From Candidatus Poribacteria bacterium (GTDB lineage Bacteria; Poribacteria; WGA-4E; WGA-3G), in the NCBI GenBank assembly GCA_022822085.1, contig JAJECK010000135.1:1-32704 (forward strand): a DNA stretch of 32,704 bases, in the 5' to 3' direction. Of this stretch, positions 8,509 to 32,579 are shown in pieces. Both the position numbers and the translations under genes were made by a program. The number at the start of each line of letters is the position of its first letter. Position 1 is the first letter of the stretch. The notes beneath the pieces are model-generated. The model was not told the origin of the DNA and ran no database searches. It saw nothing but the letters and a program-made list of their open reading frames with translations.

Positions 8509-8560
8509 TATATTCTTCTGTGAATATCTCCAATCATCTATTTTTCTAATCTGAAGCGAC

Positions 8561-9222: not shown

Positions 9223-9274
9223 TATATTCTTCTGTGAATATCTCCAATCATCTATTTTTCTGATCTGAAGCGAC

Positions 9275-9936: not shown

Positions 9937-9988
9937 TATATTCTTCTGTAAATATCTCCAATCATCTATTTTTCTGATCTGAAGTGAC

Positions 9989-14289: not shown

Positions 14290-17124
14290 ATGCATTCAAA
14301 ACGATTCTTAATCATTACTTTCGCTTTCTATCTTGGTTTCTGCTTCAATTGTTTAGCACAGGAACCAACAATCTTAAAACACGGGAGTTCTATCCAATCA
14401 ATAGAATTTTCACCGATAGACGCATCACTTGTAGCCAGTGCAAGTGACGACCACACAGTAAAATTATGGAATTCGCAAAATAATACATCAACAACACTCA
14501 CTGGACATATAGACAAAGTTAATGCTGTAACGTTTTCTCCAGATGGAAAATTGCTTGCAAGTGGGAGTGATGATCGTTCCATCAAAATCTGGGATGTCAA
14601 ACGAAAACAGAACAGAGTCACACTAAAACATAGACCATCTGGAGGTGCAGCATCAACCGTCATTTCATTAGCATTTTCACCTAACGGAAAGATGCTTGCA
14701 AGTTCTGGGTATAAAAGTGTGAAGTTCTGGGATATTGCCAGTTGGAAAGAAATCGCAACGTTAAAACATGATGACTGGGTGCATGCGGTCGTTTTTTCAC
14801 CGAATGGACAACTCCTTGCTGCTGTAGATGGAAAACAGATGAAGGTCTGGAATGTTAAAAAACGAAAAATTATCACCCGATTGGAAGGGGATGTTGAATG
14901 GATCGGTGCTATTGGATTCTCACCAGACAGTCAAATCTTTACAAGTGCTGGATCTGAAGGAAATATTAAACTATGGTCGGTAACTGATTGGCAGGTTATC
15001 AGAAATATTAAGGATGTTTCCTCAGTTTCGGACCTTGCGTATTCATCAGATGGCAAATACCTCGTCAGTGCTGGACATACCGTTGTTGTTTGGTCCGTTG
15101 AAAATGGCAGAAGAATCACGTCGTTCTCAGAACACACGGGATGGGTGGTGGAAGCAGCATTTTCGCCAGATGGCACTACCATCGCAAGCGGCGGGCTTGA
15201 GGATGGCACACTCTGTATCCAGAAGATTGATATTCCAAGAGAAGCACAGGTCGAACCAAACACTGTCCGATTGATATATTTTATCCCAAGTGACCGCACA
15301 CCACAACCTGACATAGATGCCAAGTTAGATAAATTAATAAAAACCGCACAGCAAATCTACGCATCACAGATGGAACACCACGGCTTCGGTAAAAAGACCT
15401 TTAAGTTTGAAAAAAATGCTGACGGTAAAGCCGTGGTACATCATATAAAGGGAAAGTTCAAAGACGAATATTATGAAAAAAAGTCTGGGAAGGTCTGGGA
15501 CGAAATAGATAAGCAATTTGACACATATTTTAATATCTATCTCACGGCTTTGGAAAGTCGCGCTGAAGTCCTTGATGGGTTTGCATGTGGTTTTGGAGGT
15601 ACTCGCGGTGATTTTGGTGGTACAGTACTCATTCCCGCTTCTGGGCAATGTTTTTATGAGACTGCTGTAACCGTGCACGAACTTGGACACGCCTTTGGAT
15701 TAGCACACGACTATCGCAACAATTTGAAGCCATGGGTAAATTTATATACAAATGAACCGATGACAACATCATTCTGTGCAGCACAGTGGTTAGATGTTCA
15801 TCCGTATTTCAATACACGCGAAACTACCTCTAACCAATTAACCACAATTCAAATGGCAACACCAAAACGGGTACCTGAATCTAACAAAGTCCATTTCCAA
15901 TTTACTATAACAGACAAAGATAGACTACATCAAGCACAGTTTCTAATACCAGAATCTCACAATTCGCCATTCTCAAAATTGCAGGACTTTAAAGGTTTAA
16001 ATAGTGATAAGGAAAAAGTTGAGTTCTTTACAACACAGTTAACACCAAAGATAAAATTCGTATGGTTGCGGGTGATAGATAAAAACGGCTATTTTACTGA
16101 AAAGAGATTCCGCATCAAGATGGAACCACTTCTACCACCACCTAACACTGTATCTATACCAGATGCTAATTTAGCTGCAGCAATTCAAAATGCAGTTGGT
16201 TTGCTGCCTGATGCTCCAATTACACAATTGGATATGCTTAACCTATTCGGACTGAATCCGTTCGGAAACTTTGATGGCAGTAACAATCTGATAACCGACC
16301 TCACTGGTATTGAACACGCAACGAATCTAACGAGTTTAAATCTCAGCATAAATAAGATTAACGACATTCGTCCTATCGCAAAAATGAAGAAGCTGCGGGT
16401 TCTAACACTTAACAATAATAGAATCTCGAACATAAAAGCGATCACGGGATTGACAAACTTACAAGAATTATCACTAAAAAATAATCCAATTGAAGACTAT
16501 TCACCCATACGTGAATTACTTGAAAAGAACCCTAATATCGTTTTGGATGTGTGGCATCTTGTTTACAAGGTGGATAAAATAACCGGACCATGGCTTTGGA
16601 TGATTGCTCCAACAGGTAAAGGAGGCGCGAATTCCATAGATGACGACTCACTCGCAGCACTTAGTAATGGGATTGTGACTGAAAGAACTATTGCAAGAAA
16701 AGGTGTCAGAGAAGGAGATCGCGTTAGTGACCATGTTTGGACGAAGGAAAAGATAAGTGGGACCAGTGATAACAACCTTAATGAACTTGTCAGAAAAATC
16801 GGTTTTACAGATAGCATCAATCCGACTGCTATAACAAACAATCTGTACGTCCAAGATCATTCCGCTTATGCACTCATCACTCTTAAATCTGCTACCGATC
16901 AACCTGGCGTCAGAATGTTTGTTGGCAGTGATGACGCAATAAAGGTGTGGCTCAACGGAAAGGTGGTCTATAAGAATGCAATCATCCGTGGTGCAGACAA
17001 TTTTCAGAATAGTTTCAAGGTAGATTTGAAAGCGGGTGATAACCTCTTGCTGGTTAAAATTAGCCAGGTCGGTGGTAAATGGAGTATGTTCGTCGGCATT
17101 GATGCGGATATAACAACGAAGTAA
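14290..17124 (+). CDS. Secreted WD40 - metzincin-like protease - LRR multidomain protein
   Basis: A 944-aa exported protein. Residues 1-23 form a signal peptide, with likely cleavage after CLA-Q. Seven WD40 repeats (about 30-315) each show FSPDG-type and (I/V/F)W(D/N/S)-type motifs, enough for one complete propeller. A metalloprotease-like region follows with HELGHAFGLAHD: His463, Glu464, His467 and His473 form the zinc-binding HExxHxxGxxH pattern of metzincins. After a beta-rich linker come the cap IPDANLAAAIQNA (about 620) and LRR repeats (about 665-740, LTSLNLSINKI, LRVLTLNNNRI). The last 185 residues include VGSDDAIKVWLNGKVV, resembling a jelly-roll binding domain. A role in extracellular adhesion or proteolysis is inference. 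Only weak AAGG precedes the ATG. Confidence 0.88.
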   Translation: MHSKRFLIITFAFYLGFCFNCLAQEPTILKHGSSIQSIEFSPIDASLVASASDDHTVKLWNSQNNTSTTLTGHIDKVNAVTFSPDGKLLASGSDDRSIKIWDVKRKQNRVTLKHRPSGGAASTVISLAFSPNGKMLASSGYKSVKFWDIASWKEIATLKHDDWVHAVVFSPNGQLLAAVDGKQMKVWNVKKRKIITRLEGDVEWIGAIGFSPDSQIFTSAGSEGNIKLWSVTDWQVIRNIKDVSSVSDLAYSSDGKYLVSAGHTVVVWSVENGRRITSFSEHTGWVVEAAFSPDGTTIASGGLEDGTLCIQKIDIPREAQVEPNTVRLIYFIPSDRTPQPDIDAKLDKLIKTAQQIYASQMEHHGFGKKTFKFEKNADGKAVVHHIKGKFKDEYYEKKSGKVWDEIDKQFDTYFNIYLTALESRAEVLDGFACGFGGTRGDFGGTVLIPASGQCFYETAVTVHELGHAFGLAHDYRNNLKPWVNLYTNEPMTTSFCAAQWLDVHPYFNTRETTSNQLTTIQMATPKRVPESNKVHFQFTITDKDRLHQAQFLIPESHNSPFSKLQDFKGLNSDKEKVEFFTTQLTPKIKFVWLRVIDKNGYFTEKRFRIKMEPLLPPPNTVSIPDANLAAAIQNAVGLLPDAPITQLDMLNLFGLNPFGNFDGSNNLITDLTGIEHATNLTSLNLSINKINDIRPIAKMKKLRVLTLNNNRISNIKAITGLTNLQELSLKNNPIEDYSPIRELLEKNPNIVLDVWHLVYKVDKITGPWLWMIAPTGKGGANSIDDDSLAALSNGIVTERTIARKGVREGDRVSDHVWTKEKISGTSDNNLNELVRKIGFTDSINPTAITNNLYVQDHSAYALITLKSATDQPGVRMFVGSDDAIKVWLNGKVVYKNAIIRGADNFQNSFKVDLKAGDNLLLVKISQVGGKWSMFVGIDADITTK

Positions 17125-17264: not shown

Positions 17265-17420
17265 AAAAGTAATACATCCTGGGAGAGTGAAAGAACTTCC
17301 ATCATCAACGAAAACGGGCACTTAACAGGTTGTTTATATGAGTGGGCATTCGGCGCGGATTATGACCAGCTGCCTTTTGAGATAACTGATGACAAGGAGC
17401 ACAAAGTTATATGCAGATAA
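17265..17420 (+). pseudogene. Possible gene remnant before the methyltransferase
   Basis: Directly after the previous fragment's TGA and in the same frame, 51 codons run open to a TAA at 17418-17420 without any ATG. The translation has a protein-like composition (for example TGCLYEWAFGADYDQLPF and EITDDKEHK) and runs ten bases into the methyltransferase start. I do not recognise it. It could be the truncated tail of a lost gene or a chance open frame. Confidence 0.3.
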
Positions 17421-20098
17421 GATCAATAAACGTAGAACAAATATATGCCAGGGTCATTGGGTGTATCGTAGACCTGCTGATGAATCCTGATAACACAGCA
17501 CTTAGAGAGCGGTTTGACATATTCTATGCAGAGTTGAGAGGCTCAATAAACGATACAATAACTCAGAGCAACACCATCAATATGATGGTACAGTATATCT
17601 TGTCCCGGCCTGTTTTTGAGGTGCTCTTTGAGAATTATGACTTCGCTTCCGGTGGTCCTATTGTAAGAGAACTGGATAATCTACTGAACGATTTCCGAGA
17701 ATTCGGACTTGAGAACGAAACGCGTGGTTTAGAGGATTTCTACGAAAATGTCCGCAATTGTGCTCGCGGGATTAACACTGTTGTAGATAGACATCACTTA
17801 ATGTTAGAACTCTATGAAAGGTTTTTCAAAAAATTAATATCTATTGACACTGACCGAATAGGTATACTTTTCACCCCTGTAGAGATCGTAGATTTTATCT
17901 TACATAGTGTCAATGAGATATTGCAGGATGAGTTTGGAAAATTTCTTACAGATGAGGGTATCCATGTCCTTGATCCATTTGCAGGAAGTGGCACTTTTCT
18001 TTCCCGCCTCATTCAATCTGGGCTTATCCAATCTGACGATTTAGAACGGAAATATCGTGAGGAATTACATGCCAATGAAATTGTCCCAATTGCTTACTCC
18101 CTTGCATCTGCTAATATTAAAGACGCATTCCACGGACAACGCGGAGAAATTCGCAGCTACGAACCGTTCAACGGCATTGTCCTAACCGATACACTCAATC
18201 TCAATGTAGAATCACGCTCTTTACTTTTCCCTAGTGAAAGTCTGTTCAATAATGACCAACTTGCTGAAAACCAAGAAATATCTCCGATTCAAGTTATCGT
18301 CGGCAACCCTCCTTGGCCAGTAGGATACAGAATGGGAACAGATGACAACAGAAGCGTGGAGTACCCCAGACTTGCAGAGCGGATTACAGAAACCTATGCT
18401 GTTTGCTTTACAGCAACGCTAAGGAGGAGTCTCTATGACACATACAAGATGGCGATTCGTTGGGCATCCGACAGTATACGAGGACAGGGAATTGTTGCTT
18501 TCGCCACCATAGGGTCATGGATTGATAGTAGTGTTGATTCGGGAATGCGTACCTGTTTAGCAGAGGAGTTTAGTTCAATCTATATCCTTAATCTACATGG
18601 TAATACAAGTCGCATTGGTAACCAAAGACGTTGCGAAGGTGGTAACGTGTTTGGTGCCAATTTAAAGGCACCAGTCGCAATTACAATCATGGTGAAAAAT
18701 CCAAACGCTGCGTTTAACGATTGTAAAATTCACTACCGTAGCATTGGGTACTATCTCACCCGTGAACAAAAGCTAAGGGCTCTGCAACAAGCCAGATCTA
18801 TAAGAGGTTTCAGTGATTGGCGAATAATTTCACCTGAAAATCATCACAATTGGATTAACCAAGACAGCGATGTATTTGCTCAGTTCTATCCACTCTCATT
18901 ACAAGACTCTCGAGCATACGGAACAAATGAGGGGATATTTAATCTATATTCACCAGGGATGATTACAGGTAGAGACGCATGTATTTATAACTTTTCACGT
19001 GATGTCTGTGCACAAAACGCACAGAGAATGATACAAGACTATCTTACAGTTCTTTCCGAACTTGAGGCACATCCTGATCTCATACGAAATGTAGAAACGC
19101 GTCGGAACGCATTATATTTTAGATGGGATCAGGAAATTGAGAATAACCTAAGGCAAAGGGAAACAACAGAATATGACGAAAGTAACATTCGAAAAATTGC
19201 TTACCGACCCTTTGTAAAAATAAATGGTTACGTGGATAACATCTTTATACGTAGAAGGCGTCAAATGGCTCAGATATTTCCATCTCCATCCAGCCACAAT
19301 CGTGTGATTTGCATTCCCCGAGTCGTATCCAGGATCCCTTTTTCCGCACTCATGACTGATACTATGCCAGACCTCCGTTTCCATGCAAACTGTGAGTGTT
19401 TTCCCCGTTACCAATATTCGGAGTTATCGGACAGACCAGGCACTACGGACACGTTTCAAAGATCCGATGAAGCACTGTATCGTATAGACAATATTTCAGA
19501 TGCGGCACAGTATGAATTTTGTAGGCACTACGGAACAAGAAAGATTACGAAAGACGATATATTCTATTACGTTTACGGCATTTTACACGCTTCCAGTTAT
19601 CGTGATCAATTTGAAACCGATTTAAGAATGTTTCTGCCACGCATTCCATTTGCACCAGACTTCATTGCATTCGCTGATGCTGGCATGAGACTTGCAGATT
19701 TACATCTCAATTATGAAACATGCCAACAAAACCATTTGAACACCGTTTTCGAACGCGGGATAGAAACACAACCAGAACATTTCCGGCTCGGACCAAGGGG
19801 AATGCGATTCGCTATTTCTGACAGAACGACACTCATCATCAACGAGAATATCCGTTTATCTGGTATTCCAGAAGATGCACATCGGTATTTTGTCAACCAT
19901 AGGACACCACTGGAATGGTTTATTTACTGTTACAAAGTAACACGGGATAGGGTTAGGGATAGTGGCATCGTTAACGATCCCCACAATTGGTTCTCGGATC
20001 CACGTGATCTTATTACGGCAATTAAGCGTATTGTTTATGTGAGTGTGGAATCTGCGCGGATTATTGATAACCTGCCGGATGAGATAACCGATGAATAA
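17411..20098 (+). CDS. N6-adenine DNA methyltransferase, type ISP-like, without nuclease/helicase part
   Basis: An 895-aa gamma-type N6-adenine methyltransferase. GILFTPVEIVDFIL leads into SAM motif I, DPFAGSGTF (188-196), and catalytic motif IV NPPW (299-302) is intact. The C-terminus (LEWFIYCYKV, SGIVNDPHNW, VSVESARIIDNLP) resembles the end of single-chain type ISP restriction enzymes such as LlaGI. Those enzymes are about 1,500 aa with an N-terminal Mrr-like nuclease and SF2 helicase that are absent here. It starts within what would be the coupler. AAGGAG at 17394-17399 supports the ATG. It may be an orphan modification enzyme or a recognition subunit. No partner helicase adjoins it. Confidence 0.82.
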   Translation: MQIRSINVEQIYARVIGCIVDLLMNPDNTALRERFDIFYAELRGSINDTITQSNTINMMVQYILSRPVFEVLFENYDFASGGPIVRELDNLLNDFREFGLENETRGLEDFYENVRNCARGINTVVDRHHLMLELYERFFKKLISIDTDRIGILFTPVEIVDFILHSVNEILQDEFGKFLTDEGIHVLDPFAGSGTFLSRLIQSGLIQSDDLERKYREELHANEIVPIAYSLASANIKDAFHGQRGEIRSYEPFNGIVLTDTLNLNVESRSLLFPSESLFNNDQLAENQEISPIQVIVGNPPWPVGYRMGTDDNRSVEYPRLAERITETYAVCFTATLRRSLYDTYKMAIRWASDSIRGQGIVAFATIGSWIDSSVDSGMRTCLAEEFSSIYILNLHGNTSRIGNQRRCEGGNVFGANLKAPVAITIMVKNPNAAFNDCKIHYRSIGYYLTREQKLRALQQARSIRGFSDWRIISPENHHNWINQDSDVFAQFYPLSLQDSRAYGTNEGIFNLYSPGMITGRDACIYNFSRDVCAQNAQRMIQDYLTVLSELEAHPDLIRNVETRRNALYFRWDQEIENNLRQRETTEYDESNIRKIAYRPFVKINGYVDNIFIRRRRQMAQIFPSPSSHNRVICIPRVVSRIPFSALMTDTMPDLRFHANCECFPRYQYSELSDRPGTTDTFQRSDEALYRIDNISDAAQYEFCRHYGTRKITKDDIFYYVYGILHASSYRDQFETDLRMFLPRIPFAPDFIAFADAGMRLADLHLNYETCQQNHLNTVFERGIETQPEHFRLGPRGMRFAISDRTTLIINENIRLSGIPEDAHRYFVNHRTPLEWFIYCYKVTRDRVRDSGIVNDPHNWFSDPRDLITAIKRIVYVSVESARIIDNLPDEITDE

Positions 20099-20404: not shown

Positions 20405-20698
20405 ATGAACAACTATAAAGATATTATCACAATTGAACCGGGCAAACGCAGCGGACAGCCATGTATACGAGGAATGCGGATCACCGTATATGATGTTTTT
20501 GAATATCTTGCATCGGGTATGACCGTGGCCGAAGTCCTTCATGATTTTCCCGAATTAACCGAGACAGACATTCGTGCTTGTTTTGCTTATGCTGCGGATA
20601 AGGAAAAATCACAGATTACCGTCTACACAGATGAAACTTCTATTCGATCAGAACTTGTCCGACCAACTGGTGGATCTGCTGGCGGATCTGTTTCCTAA
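20405..20698 (+). CDS. DUF433-family antitoxin
   Basis: A 97-aa protein with the DUF433 pattern: ITIEPGKRSGQPCIRGMRITVYDV, then YLASGMTVAEVLHDFPELTETDIRACFAYAADKE. The fold is a small winged-helix-like DNA-binding domain found as the antitoxin partner of PIN-like toxins. Most relatives are about 75-80 aa; here about 20 extra residues (ending GGSAGGSVS) are encoded in the region that also codes for the start of the next gene, so the tail is probably not functional. It is the first gene of a two-gene operon with its own promoter. Confidence 0.88.
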   Translation: MNNYKDIITIEPGKRSGQPCIRGMRITVYDVFEYLASGMTVAEVLHDFPELTETDIRACFAYAADKEKSQITVYTDETSIRSELVRPTGGSAGGSVS

Positions 20699-20963
20699 TT
20701 CTTCACATGCCAAAACTATAGGGCTAGATACAGCAATTGATACCGAGTTATGGGATTACGCTCGCGATAACGAAAATATCATCATATCAAAGGATACAGA
20801 CTTTAGGAATCGGAGCGTTATTCACGGTTTTCCCCCAAAGGTAATTTGGATCGGAATAGGAAATTGCGCAACGAGTGTTGTTGAAAATCATTTGAGAAGA
20901 TACATCGCTGATATAAAAGAATTTTCAAAAGATGCAAATGCAGGTTTATTTATCCTGCGATAA
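20631..20963 (+). CDS. DUF5615-family PIN-like toxin
   Basis: A 110-aa Mut7-C/PIN-like protein, a presumed ribonuclease toxin. Acidic residues typical of the fold are visible in LLFDQNLS at the N-terminus and in ISKDTDFRNR. The start is set at the ATG at 20631 because homologues begin with the strand-forming KLLFDxNLS; the longer upstream frame only reads through the DUF433 gene. The 68-bp overlap with DUF433 in another frame is long and implies tight translational coupling. Confidence 0.87.
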   Translation: MKLLFDQNLSDQLVDLLADLFPNSSHAKTIGLDTAIDTELWDYARDNENIIISKDTDFRNRSVIHGFPPKVIWIGIGNCATSVVENHLRRYIADIKEFSKDANAGLFILR

Positions 20964-21057: not shown

Positions 21058-23454
21058 ATGTCAACAAAGGTCAACGAATTCCAAATTCTAAATGCAGATG
21101 ATGACGAATTGATGCGGATAAGTCGAAAAGGGACACTGTCTCTCAATTTAGATGAGATGCATGCAATTCAGAAACATTTTGCATCACTCAAACGTAATCC
21201 CACCGATGTTGAACTTGAAACCATCGCCCAAACATGGTCTGAACATTGTGTTCATAAGACATTCAAAAGTCTTATCCTCTATTCAGAAGAAGGCAAAGAA
21301 ACAGAAGAAATTGACGGTTTGTTTCCAACCTACATTCAACGCGCAACTGAAGTGATAAACAAACCGTGGTGTGTTTCTGTCTTTTCAGATAACGCTGGCA
21401 TCATCGAATTTGATGAAAACTATAATCTTGTGTTCAAGGTAGAAACACACAATCACCCATCTGCAATTGAACCTTACGGTGGTGCTGGCACTGGCATCGG
21501 CGGCGTTATCAGAGATTCTCTCGGAACAGGGCTGGGGGCAAAACCAATCTTAAATACGGATGTATTCTGTTTCGGTCTCCCCGACACACCTTACGATAAA
21601 CTGCCGAAAGGAACGCTACATCCCAAACGGGTGTTTAAAGGCGTTGTTGCGGGTGTTCGTGATTACGGCAACCGTATGGGTATTCCCACAGCAAACGGTG
21701 CCATCCTATTTGATGCACGATATACAGCAAACCCACTCGTCTTTTGTGGGAATGTCGGATTGATACCCAGAAATAGATGTGATAAATCCGTTGAACCTGG
21801 AGACCTAATCGTCGCTATAGGTGGACGCACAGGACGCGATGGAATACACGGTGCTACCTTCTCTTCCGCAGAATTAGACGATACATCTGAAAACCTTGGT
21901 AGTGTCGTTCAGATTGGCAATCCGATTATGGAAAAGAAGATTGTTGATGCCTTACTAAAAGCACGAGATCATAACCTGTTCAGATCCATCACAGATTGTG
22001 GTGCTGGCGGGTTCTCATCAGCTGTCGGAGAAATGGGAGAGGATACTGGTGCTGAAGTGCATTTGGAACGTGTGCCTTTAAAATATGAAGGTTTGGCTCC
22101 ATGGGAAATATGGCTATCAGAAGCGCAAGAAAGAATGGTCATCGCTGTTCCACCTGAAAATTTGGATAAACTCATGGAAATCTGTGATGCAGAGATGGTT
22201 GAGGCAACAGTCCTCGGCAGCTTTACAGATTCGCACAGACTTCAGGTGTTTTATGATGGCGAAATCGTTGCAGATTTAGATATGAAATTTCTTCATAAAG
22301 GTTTGCCACAGCATATTAAAAAAGCAACTTGGCAACCCCCACAGCATAAAGACATGCAATCACGGGATAAAATAACCGAGGACTATACCGATGACCTATG
22401 TCAACTCCTTTCAAGTCCAAATATCGCAAGTAAAGAATCTGTCATAAGGCAATACGACCACGAGGTGCAGGGTGGAGTTGTTGTAAAACCGCTGGTTGGC
22501 GTTAATAATGATGGTCCAAGTGACGCCTGCATTGCAACCCCAATTATTGGCAGTGAGAAAGCAGTCATCGTTGCAAACGGCATTAACCCCAAATATAGTG
22601 ATGTTGATGCTTATATTAGTGCTGCATCCGCAATTGATGAAGCACTACGTAATGTCATCGCTGTCGGTGGAACATTGGAAAAAACTGCACTACTTGATAA
22701 TTTCTGTTGGGGTAATCCTGATAAACCCGACCGCCTCGGTGCATTAGTTCGCTCAGCTAAGGCATGTTACGACATAGCAACCGCTTACGGTACACCTTAT
22801 ATTTCTGGTAAGGATAGCCTGTACAATGAATATCGTGACACAACAACAGGTGAACAACGCGCAATTCCTTCCACGCTACTCATTTCAGCAATTTGTGTAA
22901 TGCCAGACATTTCCAAAGCAATAACTATGGATGTCAAATCACGCGATAATCTTATATATGTCGTTGGCAATACTTATGCTGAATTGGGCGGTTCCCACTA
23001 CTTTGATATACACGGATATATTGGAAACATCGCACCCATTGTCCGAACAAGTGATGGTAAATTGACAATGGAAACACTGAGTTCAGCAATCAATCACGGT
23101 TTAGTCCGTTCTTGTCATGATTGTTCCGAAGGCGGAATAGCTGTTGCAGCTGCTGAAATGGCGTTTGCAGGCGGATTCGGAATGACCTTAAACCTCAGTA
23201 ATGTGCCTACTGGAGAGGATATAACCGGTGATGATTTTCTGCTCTTTTCAGAGTCAAATAGCCGCTTTCTCGTTGAAATTGAACCGAAAAACCAAACAAC
23301 TTATGAAGAACACATGGAGGGCATTCCAATCGGATGCATCGGTAAGGTAACAGATTCACCAGAGTTCATCGTCTACGGATTGACACAAAATTGTGTTGTC
23401 AATTCATCCATAGAGACCCTAAAAACTGCATGGCAGACTCCATTGCATTCGTAA
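21058..23454 (+). CDS. purL: Phosphoribosylformylglycinamidine synthase subunit PurL
   Basis: A 798-aa ATP-dependent synthase that makes FGAM from FGAR in step four of purine synthesis, using ammonia from PurQ. Characteristic segments are TWSEHCVHKTF near residue 60, then VETHNHPSAIEPYGGAGTG, the repeated GDLIVAIGGRTGRDGIHGA and CGAGGFSSAVGEMGEDTGAE, and a second half-repeat with SGKDSLYNEY and HDCSEGGIAVA. It is the small-type PurL without a glutaminase domain. GCGGAG precedes the ATG. purQ follows 42 bp later. No purS is seen in the window. Confidence 0.97.
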   Translation: MSTKVNEFQILNADDDELMRISRKGTLSLNLDEMHAIQKHFASLKRNPTDVELETIAQTWSEHCVHKTFKSLILYSEEGKETEEIDGLFPTYIQRATEVINKPWCVSVFSDNAGIIEFDENYNLVFKVETHNHPSAIEPYGGAGTGIGGVIRDSLGTGLGAKPILNTDVFCFGLPDTPYDKLPKGTLHPKRVFKGVVAGVRDYGNRMGIPTANGAILFDARYTANPLVFCGNVGLIPRNRCDKSVEPGDLIVAIGGRTGRDGIHGATFSSAELDDTSENLGSVVQIGNPIMEKKIVDALLKARDHNLFRSITDCGAGGFSSAVGEMGEDTGAEVHLERVPLKYEGLAPWEIWLSEAQERMVIAVPPENLDKLMEICDAEMVEATVLGSFTDSHRLQVFYDGEIVADLDMKFLHKGLPQHIKKATWQPPQHKDMQSRDKITEDYTDDLCQLLSSPNIASKESVIRQYDHEVQGGVVVKPLVGVNNDGPSDACIATPIIGSEKAVIVANGINPKYSDVDAYISAASAIDEALRNVIAVGGTLEKTALLDNFCWGNPDKPDRLGALVRSAKACYDIATAYGTPYISGKDSLYNEYRDTTTGEQRAIPSTLLISAICVMPDISKAITMDVKSRDNLIYVVGNTYAELGGSHYFDIHGYIGNIAPIVRTSDGKLTMETLSSAINHGLVRSCHDCSEGGIAVAAAEMAFAGGFGMTLNLSNVPTGEDITGDDFLLFSESNSRFLVEIEPKNQTTYEEHMEGIPIGCIGKVTDSPEFIVYGLTQNCVVNSSIETLKTAWQTPLHS

Positions 23455-23463
23455 CTTATCGCC

Positions 23464-23475
23464 AACACATGTGTT
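23464..23475. promoter_or_regulatory. 12-bp perfect palindrome between purL and purQ
   Basis: AACACATGTGTT lies in the 42-bp purL-purQ gap, about 20 bp before the purQ start. It may be a protein-binding site or chance. Confidence 0.2.
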
Positions 23476-23496
23476 TAATTTATATACGGAGAAGTT

Positions 23497-24297
23497 ATGA
23501 GACCCAAAGCACTTATCTTACGCACCGCAGGAACAAACTGTGATATGGAAACAGATGTAGCGTTTCAACTTGCAGGGGCGGATACGGATTTAGTTCATAT
23601 ACAAAACATAATATCAGGAAATAAATGCCTATCTAACTACCAGATTCTTGCTATTCCGGGTGGATTCTCCTACGGTGATGATATTAGTGCGGGGATACTT
23701 CTTGCGGTTGAAATGAAACACAAATTGAGAGATGCAATCCATCAATTTGTTTCCGACAATAAACTTGTAATTGGAATATGTAACGGGTTCCAGGTACTTA
23801 TCCGGATGGGTTTATTACCTGGGATCAACGGAGAAAAATCAGAATTATCACAATCCGCAACTTTGGCAATGAACACCTCTGCAAAATTTGAATGTCGTTG
23901 GGTTGAATTGAATACACAACAGAGTGCATGCATTTTCACAAAAGGTATAAAATCCCAACTATATCTCCCAGTTGCACACGCTGAAGGTAGGTTTACCGCT
24001 CCTGAGAATGTTTTAGCAGAATTGGAATCAAACAAACAAGTGGTATTCCGATACAACAATGGTAAAAAATATCACTCAAATAGAACAGAGTATCCGTTCA
24101 ATCCCAACGGCTCAGATGCAGACATAGCAGGTATCTGTGATAATACAGGTAGAATATTCGGATTGATGCCCCATCCTGAAAGGTTTTTGACAAAATACAA
24201 CCATCCACGTTGGACACGAGAAGACCTGCCTAATGAAGGTGATGGTCTGGCAATTTTCAAAAACGCAGTTGATTATGTAAAAGCGACATTTTCATGA
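23497..24297 (+). CDS. purQ: Phosphoribosylformylglycinamidine synthase subunit PurQ
   Basis: A 266-aa class I glutamine amidotransferase that feeds ammonia to PurL. The nucleophile is Cys95 in GICNGFQ; the His and Glu of the triad lie in MPHPER near the C-terminus, and the VAHAEGRF segment is typical. At 266 aa it is the longer form of PurQ. CGGAGAAG precedes the ATG. Its stop overlaps the next gene's ATG as ATGA, so the downstream membrane protein is likely translationally coupled. Confidence 0.96.
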   Translation: MRPKALILRTAGTNCDMETDVAFQLAGADTDLVHIQNIISGNKCLSNYQILAIPGGFSYGDDISAGILLAVEMKHKLRDAIHQFVSDNKLVIGICNGFQVLIRMGLLPGINGEKSELSQSATLAMNTSAKFECRWVELNTQQSACIFTKGIKSQLYLPVAHAEGRFTAPENVLAELESNKQVVFRYNNGKKYHSNRTEYPFNPNGSDADIAGICDNTGRIFGLMPHPERFLTKYNHPRWTREDLPNEGDGLAIFKNAVDYVKATFS

Positions 24298-24728
24298 GTA
24301 ATAAATTATCACGCAAGTTACTCCCTTTCTATATGAAAATGCCTATCTTTTGGGCATTCATCATCATCACATTTCTTGGACAGGTAATGTGGGTCACAGC
24401 AATATCAAAAAACCCGCGTATTGATTTAAGCTGGTCAAGCTTCGGTTATGCATTGGGAATAGTGCTCGGATATATGCAGGGCAAGTGGACTTCACGACTT
24501 TGGCAAAACTCATACCTGCAAGTTTTAAGACGAGAGATAACATTCTGGGATGCGAAAGGCGCGAAAAGTCTAACTTATTTTACCTGTTTTGCACTCGGAT
24601 TACCGGTAGTCGGTATTATCTTAATCAAATCAACTGCAGAATTAGCTGGTATTCAGTCATACATATTTGGATTTATCGGTGGTATGAATGTGGCATTGCT
24701 GCTATGGGTTCGACGGATACCAAAGTAA
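24294..24728 (+). CDS. Small four-helix membrane protein, function unknown
   Basis: A 144-aa inner-membrane protein with about four hydrophobic segments (roughly 18-37, 46-62, 92-111 and 117-139) separated by short basic loops. I do not recognise a family. The ATG lies inside the purQ stop overlap (ATGA), so it belongs to the purLQ transcript, but there is no evident link to purine synthesis. Confidence 0.75.
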   Translation: MSNKLSRKLLPFYMKMPIFWAFIIITFLGQVMWVTAISKNPRIDLSWSSFGYALGIVLGYMQGKWTSRLWQNSYLQVLRREITFWDAKGAKSLTYFTCFALGLPVVGIILIKSTAELAGIQSYIFGFIGGMNVALLLWVRRIPK

Positions 24729-24784: not shown

Positions 24785-26500
24785 ATGAACCTTGACAAAA
24801 ACCAACAGAAATCCATCAACCATTTGACAGGTCCGGCGATTGTTGTTGCGGGACCGGGAAGTGGTAAAACCACCGTCGTCACATCACGCATTCTAAATCT
24901 AATTCAAACACACAATATCCCTCCATCAAATATCCTTGCTATAGCATTCAATAGAAAAGCAGTAGAAGAGATGGAAAATAGACTTCTGCAGCTGCGACAA
25001 TCACAAATCGGACTGCCAACAATCCGAACCCTCCATGCCTTCGGGAAAGATATAGTCTATACCAATTACAAACAAGCAGGATTCAGATATCCGCCAGAAA
25101 TATGGTCAAGTGAAATAGACCGAATTATTGCAGAAGAAAGACGTGAAATTGATCGGTCAGCAGCATCAACCACTGTATCCATATATACAATAGAACATAA
25201 AGAAACAGGAAAGTGTTATGTTGGACAGACCACAAATCCAGAACGTCGGCGCAGAGAACACTTCACTCATTCATCCAATGACCGTCTTCGTCAAGCAATC
25301 AGATCTGAAGGTGTGAACAAATATACCTTTAAAGTCTTGGAACAGGTTCCAGGTATTGATGCCAACTATCGAGAAGCATATTGGATAAAACATCACAGAA
25401 ACCGTGGAGGTGTATTCAATCGTGCTGATCCGATGAGAAAACAGTCCAGTCATCAAATAATGCTTGAGATGTTCTGTCAACATTTTGAGATAGAACATAC
25501 AGATCATCTGGATAGAGATCCTGAGTTCGAAGATCTTAGTGAAAGGTTCAACGACATAAAAGATACGGTGATGCGGGAGAAACGTCAGGTTCAAACAGGT
25601 GTGTTCGATCCAAATAAAATTACCAACGTAGTTGTCCGTGAATTTGCTAAGAAATATGAAGAACAAAAGTCGTCAGCGAATGCTGTTGATTTTGAGGATA
25701 TGATTATCCATTCTGCAAATTTGTTAGAAACACACACAGATGTTAGACAACAATATCGTGAAAAATATCCTTATGTCCTTGTTGATGAATTCCAAGACAT
25801 ATCTCCGATTGATTATAGGTTGATATCTCAGCTGTCAGAAAACCTGTTTGCTGTAGGAGATGATGACCAAGCGATTTATAGCTTCCGAGGTGGTGATTCA
25901 CAGATTATGCAGAACTTTTCAAATGATAGAGGTGTGGTCAAATATGAGATTACACGGAACTATCGTTCAAACTCAACAATCGTTGAGCATGCAAGAGCAT
26001 TAATTGAACGTAACAATCCCAGAATACGCAAAAATCTGCGCGCTCATAATCCCCATCAAACAACAATAGAGATCGTTGAAACGACACCTGATACCATATC
26101 AGACCTACTTTTACAGCATGTCACCGAACCGCATGAAACAGCAATTCTTGTCAGAACAAACTATGAAGTAGGACGAATTGAAGAGATTCTTACCGATTTC
26201 GACGCATCCTATGAGATAGAAGTTACGACAATACACAAAGCAAAAGGTCGTGAGTGGGAGAAGGTTATCCTTATCCACAATACATTAGATAGACGTTTTC
26301 CACGTAAAGATACCATTCTTGAAGAGGAACGACGGGTCTTCTATGTTGCGATGACACGTGCAAAGTCGCAGCTTGTCGTTCTCGGTGGCAATTGCCGATT
26401 TGTTCCTGAATTTGAGAAGATTCAGAAAAACATTTGTTATTATTATCGTCAGATAATATATTGGAATGCAAGAAGAAAACTGAAAAAACTTGAGACTTGA
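24785..26500 (+). CDS. UvrD-type SF1 helicase with inserted GIY-YIG nuclease domain
   Basis: A 571-aa UvrD/Rep-like helicase. Motifs in order: Q-motif DKNQQKSI; Walker A GPGSGKTT (23-30); Ia AIAFNRKAVEEM; Ib TLHAFGK; II VDEFQD (333-338); III GDDDQAIYSFRG; IV TRNYRS; V TIHKAKGREWE; VI EERRVFYVAMTRAK (514-527). Between motifs Ib and II, residues about 131-212 form a GIY-YIG domain: IY (133-134), YVG (145-147), Arg155, His159, Glu197 and Asn212. The Tyr-His (25) and Glu-Asn (15) distances match the I-TevI catalytic set. The protein therefore combines a DNA translocase and an apparently intact nuclease in one chain. No clear Shine-Dalgarno precedes the ATG. Confidence 0.9.
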   Translation: MNLDKNQQKSINHLTGPAIVVAGPGSGKTTVVTSRILNLIQTHNIPPSNILAIAFNRKAVEEMENRLLQLRQSQIGLPTIRTLHAFGKDIVYTNYKQAGFRYPPEIWSSEIDRIIAEERREIDRSAASTTVSIYTIEHKETGKCYVGQTTNPERRRREHFTHSSNDRLRQAIRSEGVNKYTFKVLEQVPGIDANYREAYWIKHHRNRGGVFNRADPMRKQSSHQIMLEMFCQHFEIEHTDHLDRDPEFEDLSERFNDIKDTVMREKRQVQTGVFDPNKITNVVVREFAKKYEEQKSSANAVDFEDMIIHSANLLETHTDVRQQYREKYPYVLVDEFQDISPIDYRLISQLSENLFAVGDDDQAIYSFRGGDSQIMQNFSNDRGVVKYEITRNYRSNSTIVEHARALIERNNPRIRKNLRAHNPHQTTIEIVETTPDTISDLLLQHVTEPHETAILVRTNYEVGRIEEILTDFDASYEIEVTTIHKAKGREWEKVILIHNTLDRRFPRKDTILEEERRVFYVAMTRAKSQLVVLGGNCRFVPEFEKIQKNICYYYRQIIYWNARRKLKKLET

Positions 26501-26559: not shown

Positions 26560-28302
26560 ATGAAACTTGATAAAAGAAAATCTTCCGCGTTAGATATGGA
26601 CTTTGAACCCAACCATCTTTATTATGGTGATTGCCTTGATGTGATGCACAGTTGGCCAAGCAAATCAGTTGACTTAATCTATGTCCAACCACCATCTAAC
26701 TCAAATGTGACCGCTTCTGGACCTCAGGGAGAAAATATTAGACAACCAGATAGAGAACTTAACACATTTACCGATATGTGGACTTGGACAGATAAAGCGG
26801 AACAACGACTAAAACGACTTCAACACACAACACATCCTGTTGAACGAGCAATACGTGCTTCTGCTATAGTCCTCAAACATACTGACATGTTGGCATATAT
26901 AACTTATATGGCAGAACGTCTCACTCAAATGAAACGGATCCTTAAACCCACAGGGGCTATCTATGTGCACTGTGATTCAACTGCTAGTCATTATCTCAAG
27001 CAAATCATGGATGTTCTTTTCGGCCCAAAGAATTACCGAAATGAGATTATCTGGTGTCCCACCGGAGGGCGTGTTAGATGGTACAATTCCAACTCAAAAA
27101 ACTTTAGTGAAAGTAGGGAAACAATTCTCTTTTATGGTATGCCCAAACACCAATTTAAGGCATGTTACGAACCGGATCCGCATGCAGAAAAACGGTATCA
27201 ACACGTTGATGAACACAATAGACGTTTTACATTAATGCCGCTATGGCGTTCTCCGAGTATGGATTCACGTCCTAATCTCAACTTTGAATGGCGAGGCTAT
27301 GTAAATCCGCACCCAAGCGGATGGATCATGACAAAGGATAATCTTGAACGACTATATCAAGATGGGCGTATTTACATTAAGAACGACAGACCTTACCGCA
27401 TCCGTTATATGGATGAAGATAAAGGCAAACTCGTCAGTAACGTTTGGACCGATATTAATCAATTGCACGGTATTAATACGGAATTCCCTGATTTTCCTCC
27501 CCAGAAACCGTTAGCATTACTTGAACGAATCCTGAATGCATCGTCAAATGAAGGTAACCTTGTCCTTGACCCGTTTTGTGGGTATGGAACAACTGTTGAG
27601 GCAGGCTTAAAACTAAGGAGACAGATTATCGGCATTGATACTTCCATGCTCGCGTTAGATGTTATCAACACTGTGCGGCTCCTCGGAAAGTACCCATCAC
27701 TTCCTATAAAAGGGTTTCATCCCTTCTTTGAATCCGACAGGCATACAAGTGTTCAACAAATGCATTCACCGAGGCAGCAGTTTCCTATTGACTTTGAACC
27801 CGCCAATTCTGAAAAAGATATCGAAATTATATACCAATTGAAAGATGCATTTCATAATGATTTTAAAGCTTTCTCACACCTCGTAAAGAAAGAACGGTAT
27901 CAATTTCAAGACTGGGCTGTGCAGCAAATAGGGATGATACCAAATCGCCGGAAATCCAGCGATGGGAATATTGATGGTGCGGGTGAACTCGTGGACGCAC
28001 CATATGATAATTATCAGAAAATCGCGCTGGCACAAGTCAAAAGTGGCAAGTCAACTAATTGGAAGGCAGATATAGAGCGGTTCTGTTACACTCTTGACTC
28101 TGAGAATGCTGCCTACGGGGTGTTTATTACGCTCCATCCTATCGGTGCAAAGAGTCCCGCACACAAAATTGTGGAGCAGCTTGGCAACATTACCGTTGGC
28201 AATAAGACCTATCCACGATTGCAACTATGGTCTGTGGAGGAATTTTACGTGAACGGTACTCGTCCGAATCTTCCTCCTTTAGTGGATCCTTACATGAATT
28301 AG
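26560..28302 (+). CDS. Beta-class DNA methyltransferase with altered motif IV and C-terminal Mrr-like nuclease
   Basis: A 580-aa protein. Motif IV comes first: LIYVQPPSNSN at 39-49, where the family has (D/N/S)PP(Y/F/W); Gln43 and Ser46 replace both key positions. SAM motif I, DPFCGYGTT (337-345), is intact, followed by QIIGID. The order IV then I is that of beta-class N4-cytosine/N6-adenine enzymes. Residues about 440-570 form an Mrr-like domain: Asp468 and Asp472 in SSDGNIDG and Gln492-Val-Lys494 in AQVKSGK. It may bind DNA and SAM without methylating, with cleavage by the C-terminal domain. It lies between the two helicase-nuclease genes and has its own promoter. No Shine-Dalgarno is clear. 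Confidence 0.88.
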   Translation: MKLDKRKSSALDMDFEPNHLYYGDCLDVMHSWPSKSVDLIYVQPPSNSNVTASGPQGENIRQPDRELNTFTDMWTWTDKAEQRLKRLQHTTHPVERAIRASAIVLKHTDMLAYITYMAERLTQMKRILKPTGAIYVHCDSTASHYLKQIMDVLFGPKNYRNEIIWCPTGGRVRWYNSNSKNFSESRETILFYGMPKHQFKACYEPDPHAEKRYQHVDEHNRRFTLMPLWRSPSMDSRPNLNFEWRGYVNPHPSGWIMTKDNLERLYQDGRIYIKNDRPYRIRYMDEDKGKLVSNVWTDINQLHGINTEFPDFPPQKPLALLERILNASSNEGNLVLDPFCGYGTTVEAGLKLRRQIIGIDTSMLALDVINTVRLLGKYPSLPIKGFHPFFESDRHTSVQQMHSPRQQFPIDFEPANSEKDIEIIYQLKDAFHNDFKAFSHLVKKERYQFQDWAVQQIGMIPNRRKSSDGNIDGAGELVDAPYDNYQKIALAQVKSGKSTNWKADIERFCYTLDSENAAYGVFITLHPIGAKSPAHKIVEQLGNITVGNKTYPRLQLWSVEEFYVNGTRPNLPPLVDPYMN

Positions 28303-28377
28303 TCAGCGAAAGGTTTCCGGATCTATAATGATAGGGCAAAGTTACCTCCTGTTTTGACATATAGAAAGATGACTTCT

Positions 28378-31300
28378 ATGAAAGTGAAATTGGACAAACA
28401 CCAATTGAAAGCAATGAAACATTTTCAAGGTCCTGCGCTTGTGGTAGCAGGTCCTGGAAGTGGAAAGACTACAGTAATCATAAAGCGGATTTTGAATCTA
28501 ATACACGAGCATAATGTTGATCCAGAGCGGATCCTTGCAATTGCCTTTACTAATGCTGCTGTAGATACAATGAAAGACAGAGTTAATAAACATCTCGGAG
28601 GTCGTAAGAAACCAAAGATATGTACTCTCCACTCTTTTGGCAAAGAAATTATCACAGAACATTACGATCATAAGTTGATTGGATTCAGTCAAGAACCTGA
28701 ACCGTGGGATGGAAGAAAAATTGGAAAAATTATCAGAGATGAAAAGAGATCATTAGATCGGCAAACTCGAGATATTGATGTGTACATCTATAAATTTGAA
28801 GGTAAGATGACTGGACGCGTTTATATAGGACAATCTATACATCCTTATCTTCGTGAAAAAGAACATAGAACTAGATCATCAAACAAAGGACTACGTGATG
28901 CTCTTGAAATGGATGATGAGATATTTGACTTTAATCCCTCATTAGACAAGGTAAAAGGAAAAATTGCTTACCGTCATGAAAGAGACTGGATACGACATTA
29001 TAAAAATAGATCTGCTATCGACCTCGTCCAAAAAATGGAAGAAGTCGCCAGAAAAAGTAGAGACCTTAATGTTGATATCTATAAACTAAAATCCTTGAAA
29101 GATTCAAGAGCATATTTTGGATATACAACTGAATTAAATGCTATTCGTGAGAATTTTAATAGAGATCGGACAAGTCCGATTGTATTTGATGAAGTATTAT
29201 ATACGGATATACCTTGGAGAGAGGCTTCTATTTATGTAAAAAAAGAGATAAGGAAACACAAGAATTGGGCAGTTTTTAATAGAGAAGATCCAGTTACTGC
29301 TCAATACCGCAATCAACTACGTATAGAGATATTTTGTAAACATTTCAATGTATCATATGAAGAAGTTTTAGAAAAACCCGATAGTTTTAAAAATTTATAT
29401 GAGAAATATAACAATCTACAAAATGTTGATATAGAAAAAGCAAAACGCAAGGTTGTTGCTGGTTTATTTCGTCCTGAAGAAGTTAAAGATCCTGTTTTCC
29501 GAGAATTTGCCAAAGAATATGAAAAGAAAAAAAGGGAGTCTAATGCAATTGATTTCTTTGATATGCTGATATATTCAGCATATATGCTTGAAAACGATCC
29601 GGATCTTCTTTACGAATACCGCGAAAAATATAGGTATGTATTTGTTGATGAATTTCAAGATATATCACCAATAGATTTTCGTTTGTTAAAACTATTTCCG
29701 GACAACCTTTTTGCCGTTGGGGACGACGATCAGGCGATCTATGGATTTCGAGGTGGAGATTCCAAAATCATGCAAAATGACTTTGCAAACTGGGAAAATA
29801 CGCAGAAATATGAGATTACCCGTAATTACCGTTCTACATCAGATATTGTTATACATTCAAAAGCAGTGATTGAAAATAACCAAGGCAGGATTGATAAAAA
29901 CCTTCGTTCTTACACTTCAGATCAAGGTATGATAACCTATTTTGATTTATCAAAAAGTAATTTATTTTCGTCATTGTTAAGGGAGTTTTCAGATATATTG
30001 AGTAGTGATTATCAAAAAGTAGGGATTTTAGCACGCAATTGGTTAGGAGAAATAAATGATGTCCAAGAAATGCTTGATTGTCCAGAGATTAGAAGACAAG
30101 GTTACGAAATCAAATGGGAGAAACTTGATAACTCTTCTGATGAAGAGAAAAAAAGAGTAAAAATGCTCCTATGTAAAGGCTCAAAGGAAATAGAGGTAAT
30201 TAATATTCACGAAGCCAAAGGGAGAGAATGGGATAAGGTTATTCTTCTTGTGAATACAATGTATGAAAATCTTCCCGATAAAAGAAACGATATTGAAGAA
30301 GAAAGGAGAGTCTTCTATGTTGCAGTAACTCGTGCAAAACATGAGTTAGTTATTTACTATGATGGTGTTCGGGATCGTATATTTATAGATCAATTCAAAA
30401 AACTACCACATTCAGAACGTAAGAAACGTTTGGAATTTTATAACACATCACTTTTGTCTACGTTTGAAAATCGAATAATTAATGCTAAGCACCAATTAAA
30501 GGAAGTAGCTGAACTTTTGTCAACAACATTTGCATCTCAACGGACAAGACTGTTAGATGCGTCAACTAAGACCTTACGTAAACAGTACGAACCTGAACTT
30601 GAGAGTTTGCGATGTGAAATAGTTGAAGTCGAAAATATTAGAAAGAATTTAGTAGCCTCACTCCCACTACAACTAAATGCATCAAGGGAGACTTTTCTTA
30701 AAAAGTTGATCGCAGAAATGAATCATTTGGAATTAATTGTTGATAAAACAACTGAAAAAAGTAACTCATCTGCCGAATTACTAACACTCTCTGAAAAGTT
30801 ACATTCTTCACAAAAACAGTTCCTTGATTTTCTGAAAATTCATGGTATAAGACCAATTGAAACCGTTGCGAAAACATTCAATTCAGACCTACATGAAGCA
30901 AGTCAATCTGCGCTGTACTCAGATGAAGTGCCGGCAGGAAAAATTATCAAAGTATTTCAACGTGGTTATCTATTGCATAATCAAGTGATTCAGAAAGCGA
31001 AGGTTATAATCTCAAAAGGATCGAATCCTTGGACACCTGAGAAATTAGAGCAAACTGTTGAGGTATATTTAGACCGCTTATTTTCTGCCTTTCAGGTAAG
31101 GTATAATCTAACTGATATTGAAAAATCACTTGTCATTCAAAAGTTGGTAGAATATTTATCAGGATTAGAAGATAATTGCATTGAGGAAATTTGCTTATTT
31201 GCAAATAAAAGTAGTAAGGAGGCTATTCAGGAAAGACGTTATACAGACTATTGTGCTGGACTAAAAAAAATACATCTGTGTACCGATGTATTTCGAGACT

Positions 31301-31683
31301 TCTGGAATAAAATATGGGAAATAATTAGATTTCTATCAGCAAAAAACAGGAATCGGGCAGATCTGATATTAAGTCAAGAATATGTGCAGCCGGTAAAGTT
31401 TGTAACATACAAAGGTTATTATGACCTTACAAACGTTGAGACATATCCAGATTGTATTAAGGGACTTGACCAGCAAAGTTCAGAGCAGACAATTGAAAAA
31501 AGCGATATTCTATTTGCATTCCCAAAAATGAATATGAAAGAACTAAAACCATTTATAAAAAGGGATCTGTCTATCGTCGATCAAAGACTACAACCCATTG
31601 AAAGAATCTCAGAAGGTGTTCCTGTTCCAGACGGTAATCTAAAATCATATATTCAACTTGTCACTCGATCTGTCATGTTATGA
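28378..31683 (+). CDS. UvrD-type SF1 helicase with two degenerate GIY-YIG domains and a long helical C-terminus
   Basis: A 1,101-aa paralogue of the gene at 24785. Start chosen at the ATG at 28378, which aligns with the other helicase (MKVKLDKHQ); an in-frame TTG at 28354 and ATG at 28369 are alternatives. Helicase motifs GPGSGKTT, VDEFQD (423-428), GDDDQAIYGFRG, TRNYRS, NIHEAKGREWD and EERRVFYVAVTRAK (about 640-655) are intact. Insert one has Tyr138, YIG (149-151), Arg159, His163 and Glu201, but Leu216 where Asn is expected. Insert two (about 232-301) has Tyr235, YFG (246-248), Glu282 and Asn301, but Phe260 replaces the His. Residues about 661-1101 are helical and coiled-coil-like without a recognised domain. 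Its stop overlaps the S1 gene as ATGA. Confidence 0.9.
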   Translation: MKVKLDKHQLKAMKHFQGPALVVAGPGSGKTTVIIKRILNLIHEHNVDPERILAIAFTNAAVDTMKDRVNKHLGGRKKPKICTLHSFGKEIITEHYDHKLIGFSQEPEPWDGRKIGKIIRDEKRSLDRQTRDIDVYIYKFEGKMTGRVYIGQSIHPYLREKEHRTRSSNKGLRDALEMDDEIFDFNPSLDKVKGKIAYRHERDWIRHYKNRSAIDLVQKMEEVARKSRDLNVDIYKLKSLKDSRAYFGYTTELNAIRENFNRDRTSPIVFDEVLYTDIPWREASIYVKKEIRKHKNWAVFNREDPVTAQYRNQLRIEIFCKHFNVSYEEVLEKPDSFKNLYEKYNNLQNVDIEKAKRKVVAGLFRPEEVKDPVFREFAKEYEKKKRESNAIDFFDMLIYSAYMLENDPDLLYEYREKYRYVFVDEFQDISPIDFRLLKLFPDNLFAVGDDDQAIYGFRGGDSKIMQNDFANWENTQKYEITRNYRSTSDIVIHSKAVIENNQGRIDKNLRSYTSDQGMITYFDLSKSNLFSSLLREFSDILSSDYQKVGILARNWLGEINDVQEMLDCPEIRRQGYEIKWEKLDNSSDEEKKRVKMLLCKGSKEIEVINIHEAKGREWDKVILLVNTMYENLPDKRNDIEEERRVFYVAVTRAKHELVIYYDGVRDRIFIDQFKKLPHSERKKRLEFYNTSLLSTFENRIINAKHQLKEVAELLSTTFASQRTRLLDASTKTLRKQYEPELESLRCEIVEVENIRKNLVASLPLQLNASRETFLKKLIAEMNHLELIVDKTTEKSNSSAELLTLSEKLHSSQKQFLDFLKIHGIRPIETVAKTFNSDLHEASQSALYSDEVPAGKIIKVFQRGYLLHNQVIQKAKVIISKGSNPWTPEKLEQTVEVYLDRLFSAFQVRYNLTDIEKSLVIQKLVEYLSGLEDNCIEEICLFANKSSKEAIQERRYTDYCAGLKKIHLCTDVFRDFWNKIWEIIRFLSAKNRNRADLILSQEYVQPVKFVTYKGYYDLTNVETYPDCIKGLDQQSSEQTIEKSDILFAFPKMNMKELKPFIKRDLSIVDQRLQPIERISEGVPVPDGNLKSYIQLVTRSVML

Positions 31684-32579
31684 AGGGGTACCTATTGGAA
31701 TCCGACATAAATTATCTCTACATGGATATTAATGATACAATTGTAGTTGTATATCAAGATGGTATATTACAATTCAAAAATATAGACTGGGATGAAATTG
31801 CTAATGCCTACGAAAAAGGTAGTCCTATTCTGGGATTGATCTCTGGGAGGACAAAAGGAGGGTTTTATGTTAAATTTGGATCGCTGTATGGGTTCCTTCC
31901 AGAGTCAGAAATGGAATTACGAGCAGTTCAAAATCTTGATTCTAATGTTGGCAAGACCTATGAAATGAAAATTATTGAGTTTGATCCAGAGCAGAACAAA
32001 CTTATCCTGTCACGCCGTGCTTGGCTTGAAGAAAAAAGAAGTGAGTTTTTTGAAAACGTTGAAGTAGGACAAAAAGTAAAAGGCATTGTTAAAAACATCA
32101 AAGACTTTGGTGTATTTGTTGATCTGGGAGTCATTGATGGTCTAATTCGAAAAACTGAACTGAGCTGGAAACGTATAAATAACACTTCTGAAGTTATTTC
32201 TATAGGCGATGATGTTGAAGTAATGGTAATACAAATAGATAGAGAGGCTGAAAAGATCGCCTTGAGTTTGAAACGCATGACTCAAGATCCTTGGGAAGAT
32301 GTTGATAATAAATATCCAATTGGTTCAACAGTTCAAGGAACAATCAACAGAATTGAAGAATATGGAGTGTTTCTACAACTTGAAGAAGGAGTCGTAGGAT
32401 TGCTTCATATTTCTGAGATGCAATATTCCAATGATGGTAGATATTCAATAGACCTTCTTAATGTTGGTGATGTAGTTGAAGTAACTGTACTTAAAGTCTC
32501 ATTAGAATCAAAGCATATCTCTTTTAGTATGAGGCAAACTCACGAGCATCTCTTAGAACAGTTACTGAAGTCATATTGA
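31680..32579 (+). CDS. Three-S1-domain nucleic-acid-binding protein
   Basis: A 299-aa protein with three S1 (OB-fold) motifs: about 46-115 (SPILGLISGRTKGGFYVKFG), 131-198 (VGQKVKGIVKNIKDFGVFVD) and 214-285 (IGSTVQGTINRIEEYGVFLQ). It is shorter than ribosomal protein S1 (four to six repeats) and lacks other domains. S1 domains bind single-stranded RNA or DNA. The ATG sits in the stop of the helicase (ATGA) with no Shine-Dalgarno, so translation is probably coupled and the product made in proportion to the helicase. Its place at the end of the nuclease-helicase operon suggests an accessory role there rather than in general translation; that is inference. Confidence 0.88.
   Translation: MKGYLLESDINYLYMDINDTIVVVYQDGILQFKNIDWDEIANAYEKGSPILGLISGRTKGGFYVKFGSLYGFLPESEMELRAVQNLDSNVGKTYEMKIIEFDPEQNKLILSRRAWLEEKRSEFFENVEVGQKVKGIVKNIKDFGVFVDLGVIDGLIRKTELSWKRINNTSEVISIGDDVEVMVIQIDREAEKIALSLKRMTQDPWEDVDNKYPIGSTVQGTINRIEEYGVFLQLEEGVVGLLHISEMQYSNDGRYSIDLLNVGDVVEVTVLKVSLESKHISFSMRQTHEHLLEQLLKSY

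Follow-up and report, generated by a model that had tools for sequence, protein, structure and literature searches.

How a DNA helicase could use a nuclease domain placed within its own motor, and for which cellular task, is the question raised by h571, a gene in the window (the whole stretch of 32,704 nucleotides that was analysed). In the initial annotation, a GIY-YIG nuclease was described within a UvrD-type helicase, at the place of subdomain 1B, and the protein was proposed to translocate and to cut DNA in the path of unwinding. Our best explanation, which we give an even chance of being right, is that h571 encodes a resident enzyme of chromosome maintenance, a helicase-endonuclease that translocates 3' to 5' and cleaves branched DNA. 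The gene and the parts of its product were as follows.

24785..26500, + strand: h571, UvrD-type helicase with GIY-YIG in 1B, 571 aa (open reading frame and Pfam)
24785..25048, + strand: first part of helicase domain 1A, residues 1–88, Walker A AGPGSGKT with Lys28
25049..25171, + strand: N-terminal part of subdomain 1B, residues 89–129, helical
25172..25423, + strand: GIY-YIG nuclease domain insert, residues 130–213 (Pfam, model, conservation and dN/dS)
25424..25630, + strand: C-terminal part of subdomain 1B, residues 214–282
25631..26044, + strand: second part of domain 1A and start of 2A, residues 283–420, motifs DEFQD (334–338), GDDDQ (358–362) and NYRS (392–395)
26045..26218, + strand: rest of 2A before motif V, residues 421–478 (alignment)
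26219..26404, + strand: motifs V and VI, residues 479–540, HKAKGREW and YVAMTRAK

The helicase part was examined by Pfam, alignment and structure prediction. A UvrD-helicase match (PF00580, 1e-64) and UvrD_C motifs were detected, and all SF1 motifs and the 1A/2A core were present, as in the SF1A helicases UvrD, Rep and PcrA. The best structural match of the whole model was Rep (1uaa), with Z = 31.8 over 401 residues (VIA), and UvrD and PcrA were also aligned. However, h571 differs from these helicases by the GIY-YIG domain in 1B and the deletion of 2B, and its scores against the NCBIfam equivalogs for PcrA, Rep and UvrD were at most 230 bits, compared to cut-offs above 900. The insert of approximately 85 residues, with a continuous reading frame, lies inside 1B, since the flanking helices 89–129 and 214–282 both belonged to 1B in the alignment with the UvrD of the same genome and phage UvrD proteins. 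The usual four-subdomain layout was not found, as only approximately 8 residues near 470–478 of h571 aligned with the approximately 170 residues of 2B in UvrD. The alignment, and not the model, is the basis for calling 2B absent; the 2A part of the model is poor (residues 391–426 below pLDDT 50), and the model carries no DNA. The protein stops 30 residues past the helicase core. The missing 2B, and a second such protein 1.9 kb downstream, had been overlooked at first reading.

The identity of the inserted domain was confirmed by profile and fold. GIY-YIG profile PF01541 matched residues 132–206 at 5.8e-11 (43.0 bits versus a cut-off of 22.6), and a phmmer search against the PDB gave a weak match of residues 132–215 to residues 4–93 of I-TevI (1mk0, E 0.086). 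The signature set was present as Tyr134, Tyr145-Val-Gly147, Arg155, His159, Glu197 and Asn212, with spacings of 11 (Tyr134–Tyr145), 10 (Tyr145–Arg155), 4 (Arg155–His159) and 15 (Glu197–Asn212). The catalytic residues of I-TevI are Tyr6, Tyr17, Arg27, His31, Glu75 and Asn90. Subtraction of 128 from the h571 numbers gives the first four of these, and the Glu–Asn spacing equals that of Glu75–Asn90; the Tyr–His and Glu–Asn spacings of 25 and 15, which had been said to equal those of I-TevI, agree with these numbers. The PDB title of 1mk0 contains 'E75A mutant'.

Residues 130–205 were predicted to form a beta-beta-alpha-alpha-beta-alpha fold by AlphaFold2 with 25 aligned sequences, and the pLDDT of this block was mostly 87–96. 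The PDB matches of the full model were all helicases and uninformative on the insert, so residues 78–300 were folded separately. The first three Foldseek matches of this model were the I-TevI catalytic domain, with an rmsd of 2.3–2.5 Å. For 1mk0 and 1ln0, the rmsd was 2.3 Å over 92–93 columns, the TM-score by target was 0.77–0.79, and the probability was 1.00 with a modest E-value of 1.4e-3. The next match was the GIY-YIG domain of UvrC. Thus, the nuclease domain named in the initial annotation, with its catalytic residues, was borne out by the Pfam match, the residue check and the I-TevI fold match. Its position in 1B agreed likewise with the profile match, the predicted structure and the conservation, which support it; the predicted fold at the insert was GIY-YIG and not an ordinary 1B subdomain.

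To describe the distribution, 85 genomes of the phylum were searched with the insert and its flanks. The window's family was represented by 59 genomes, and a GIY-YIG/UvrD protein was detected in 54 of them, in most cases a single orthologue of about 570–620 residues per genome. Among the same 85 genomes, other Poribacteria families gave only weak matches to separate GIY-YIG ORFs. The relatives with names are Poribacteria metagenome-assembled genomes, and the family is sponge-associated. Four of the five family genomes without the protein were only 73–83% complete. The fifth (G080), a single contig, displayed a clean gap after purL, purQ and the 144-aa gene described below, and no h571 remnant was detected in this gap. 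None of 398 Pseudomonadota genomes gave a match at E 1e-6 with a profile that recovers 19 of 20 family genomes, and plasmids and phages searched with the insert contained separate GIY-YIG proteins only. The phyla searched were Poribacteria and Pseudomonadota, and a restriction to Poribacteria is not claimed.

The orthologues were then compared for conservation and selection. In 43 of them, 65–80% identical, the helicase motifs and the seven GIY-YIG signature residues were essentially invariant, and the middle residue of Y-x-G was Ile in 41 and Val in 2. The median dN/dS over the 60 closest pairs was 0.11 for the GIY-YIG domain and 0.06–0.10 for the helicase core blocks, and it was 0.20–0.23 for the linker stretches 89–129 and 421–478. 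Therefore, with a nuclease dN/dS near that of the helicase core and invariant residues, both activities look to be kept by selection. On these sequence data, a chance match is excluded for the GIY-YIG domain by its conserved signature residues and its helicase-like dN/dS. In the tree, the orthologues formed one clade cleanly apart from the paralogues (support 98/100), and no insert-free allele was found among the orthologues examined in the family.

The neighbourhood of h571 contained the following genes.

21058..24297, + strand: purL (21058–23454) and purQ (23497–24297), conserved upstream anchor
24294..24728, + strand: 144-aa probable membrane protein, upstream syntenic neighbour of h571
26560..28302, + strand: N6/N4 DNA methyltransferase, located between the two helicases and carrying an Mrr-type nuclease domain at its C-terminus

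Where the upstream sequence was long enough, the 144-aa gene almost always preceded h571. The h571 site lies downstream of purL, purQ and this gene, usually directly or with one or two small genes between; in the exception, L040, several kb separate this anchor from the h571 orthologue. In 8 of about 20 loci (L041, L043, L045, L046, L047, L050, L055 and L059), the helicase gene was immediately preceded by a pair of ORFs, an HNH nuclease ORF with matches to Septu PtuB-like profiles and a 184-aa ORF without a Pfam match; this pair was absent from the other loci. The methyltransferase-Mrr fusion was not seen at its place in relatives. Upstream of purL, at 17411–20098 of the window, an 895-aa type ISP/IIG restriction-modification-like protein (ISP coupler, N6 methylase and specificity domain) was encoded; it lacks the N-terminal approximately 700 positions of the long PADLOC models and was not seen there in the relatives that were read.

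The second helicase of the window, h1109, was 40–44% identical to h571.

28354..31683, + strand: paralogue h1109, 1109 aa, UvrD helicase in which 1B holds two copies of GIY-YIG, with GrpE C-terminal to the helicase
28774..29016, + strand: first GIY-YIG of h1109, residues 141–221, with Tyr, Tyr, Gly, Arg, His and Glu kept and the terminal Asn not aligned
29068..29292, + strand: second, decayed GIY-YIG of h1109, residues about 239–313
30538..31017, + strand: GrpE domain of h1109, residues 729–888
31680..32579, + strand: separate ORF with three ribosomal-S1-type domains, its start overlapping the h1109 stop (ATGA)

A second GIY-YIG/UvrD protein was detected in about 12 of the 59 family genomes, and it adjoined the first in the neighbourhoods that were examined. 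Paralogues with a single GIY-YIG (L041 and L059) kept the full residue set. In the double type, the first copy kept Tyr, Tyr, Gly, Arg, His and Glu, and the second kept Tyr and YxG, without Glu and mostly without Arg and His. GrpE was matched in many paralogues (1e-17 to 1e-26), several of which contained 3–4 S1 domains in addition (1e-47 to 1e-61); one paralogue gave a marginal Hfq match (26.8 bits, Pfam cut-off 27). The S1 part was fused in one frame with the paralogue in L053, L214 and L219 and is a separate ORF in the window. GrpE and/or S1-type tails were observed on tandem paralogues in L053, L214, L219, L041, L059, L216 and L217. Ordinary grpE and rpsA sit elsewhere in the window's genome, and therefore the GrpE and S1 parts of the paralogues are extra copies. 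Together with the decayed second nuclease, the tailed paralogues offer a natural series on which part of the architecture matters.

Rep, UvrD and PcrA move 3' to 5' on single-stranded DNA, and Rep without 2B is still active as a helicase. By homology to these three proteins, h571 would be a single-chain helicase-endonuclease in which a UvrD/Rep-type SF1A motor without 2B moves 3' to 5' on single-stranded DNA with ATP. Subdomain 1B faces the duplex in UvrD, Rep and PcrA. A nuclease in this position could therefore cut at the opening junction or close to it; we infer the strand and position of this cut. The translocating nuclease proposed in the initial annotation is compatible with this modelled architecture. 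The most likely substrates in the sponge-associated family would be branched, forked or flapped DNA. The protein was probably built once from a homing-endonuclease-type GIY-YIG domain, and its gene was duplicated, with the copies gaining GrpE and S1 tails.

The near-universal presence, the fixed site and the strong purifying selection, all read from sequence, favour a resident role in chromosome maintenance. The window's genome also encodes a separate UvrC, a Cho-like UvrC and an ordinary UvrD/PcrA; therefore, h571 would add a function and would not substitute for them. Replacement of UvrC was ruled out because UvrC was present in every phylum genome searched, and replacement of UvrD was ruled out by the ordinary UvrD of the window's genome. 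The C-terminal domains of UvrC were not detected in h571 by Pfam, which sets it apart from UvrC and Cho. As the protein is near-universal in an uncultured symbiont family, h571 may be a part of core DNA metabolism that is absent from reference organisms.

Against chromosome maintenance, a widespread gene could still be a fixed defence gene, and the PtuB-like HNH ORF upstream in some loci points toward defence. The main rival explanation, which we regard as a real if tentative possibility, is therefore an anti-phage or anti-plasmid defence nuclease. Its motor would patrol or be recruited to the invader, the GIY-YIG domain would cut, and the tailed paralogues would be diversified effectors. The best PADLOC matches of the helicase part were the GajB and DRT helicase profiles, and Gabija GajB is, like h571, a short UvrD-like helicase. 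The HNH/184-aa pair, the Mrr-methyltransferase fusion between the window's helicases, the type ISP/IIG restriction enzyme upstream, and paralogues that are patchy and fast-evolving with exchangeable tails also agree with defence. However, h571 itself is not patchy; it occupies the same site across nearly the whole family, as one orthologue clade under strong purifying selection, and in many genomes it has only metabolic neighbours. Unlike h571, GajB lacks a nuclease insert, and it acts together with GajA. No GajA-like gene or other known defence partner adjoins h571, the direct neighbours of which are the 144-aa membrane protein and the methyltransferase-Mrr fusion.

Another reading, which we consider unlikely, is that h571 acts on RNA-containing substrates such as R-loops or transcription complexes, like HelD or PcrA at RNA polymerase, and that its nuclease cuts the displaced strand of DNA. 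In the paralogues, RNA would then be bound by the S1 and Hfq-like tails, and HelD structures were among the fold matches. However, h571 itself has no RNA-binding tail, HelD was a weaker match than Rep/UvrD (Z 23 versus 32), and GrpE is no RNA binder.

Phages depend on host proteins, lambda on GrpE and Q-beta on S1 and Hfq. It is conceivable, though very improbable, that the locus serves as a helicase-nuclease platform and that its duplicated copies carry these proteins (GrpE, S1, Hfq) as baits, so that phage replication complexes seizing a bait would be cut. If true, this would be a bacterial counterpart of the integrated decoys of plants, built on a conserved GIY-YIG/UvrD enzyme. No paper on integrated decoys in bacteria was found in the literature search.

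A selfish or accidental GIY-YIG insertion with no role in the helicase is hardly credible: GIY-YIG domains do move between genes, I-TevI has the closest fold, the nearest viral relatives are free-standing ORFs of 160–330 aa, and the same reading was proposed for an HsdR with GIY-YIG (PMC1564403), but all catalytic residues are kept in the 43 orthologues and the single-GIY paralogues at a dN/dS of 0.11, which speaks against decay, the frame is continuous with no insert-free allele in the family and no Rfam intron RNA, and the decaying second copies of the double-GIY paralogues show how unselected copies look.

The preferred helicase-endonuclease was also compared to known systems. Like h571, AddAB, RecBCD and AdnAB join a UvrD-type motor and a nuclease in one polypeptide; in these enzymes the nuclease is of the RecB type and C-terminal. 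In contrast, h571 has a GIY-YIG domain inside 1B of one short chain, and no RecB-type nuclease was matched in it by Pfam. A nuclease in 1B, unlike the terminal one of RecBCD-type enzymes, would couple cutting directly to the junction that the motor opens, with the whole motor and nuclease in one 571-residue chain. I-TevI-type homing endonucleases share with h571 the catalytic residues, their spacings and the closest solved fold, whereas h571 is part of a helicase at one chromosomal site and is not free-standing. Neither the intron or intein location nor the NUMOD domains of homing endonucleases were found, since Pfam gave no NUMOD domain in h571 and Rfam no intron match in the window. An intron or intein was ruled out by this Rfam result, the continuous frame and the insert size of approximately 85 residues.

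In Tlr8p of the Tetrahymena Tlr elements, a GIY-YIG domain is located C-terminally to an SF1 helicase (Dunin-Horkawicz et al. 2006, PMC1564403). Tlr8p and the SF1 helicase fusions of polinton-like viruses share with h571 an SF1 helicase and an I-TevI-like GIY-YIG in one protein (PMC1564403), but they belong to eukaryotic mobile elements and their GIY-YIG follows the helicase, whereas that of h571 is internal. In Methylococcus, the HsdR MCA0838 carries an inserted GIY-YIG that was judged recent and possibly without function (PMC1564403). It is likewise a GIY-YIG inside an ATP-driven DNA translocase; however, it is a single case, in a type I restriction subunit, with an Slx1-like domain. Tlr8p and the HsdR insert narrow the claim of the initial annotation that no GIY-YIG was known in an SF1 helicase core. 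In the literature covered, which largely excluded subscription journals, no UvrD-type helicase was found described with a GIY-YIG in its 1B subdomain. We regard h571 as a member of the known helicase-nuclease fusions with an apparently undescribed placement of the GIY-YIG domain in 1B.

A phage origin of the whole protein was rejected: 80 viral UvrD and 47 viral GIY-YIG relatives were examined and none joins both parts. The two-part architecture was absent from the viral, phage and plasmid matches examined, and the closest viral helicase by E-value (L136) had no GIY-YIG match.

Further genes of the window were also observed. A 944-aa protein with a WD40 beta-propeller and leucine-rich repeats is encoded at 14290–17124; it has a 63% identical counterpart in L039, and most of the other relatives showed no such gene at this position. 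An overlapping DUF433/DUF5615 pair at 20405–20963 is a probable toxin-antitoxin module. On the minus strand at 7808–10647, eight overlapping small ORFs alternate between Gp49/HigB-like and HTH antidote proteins and form a tandem toxin-antitoxin array; four of five tested ORFs matched PF05973 or PF21716/HTH_3.
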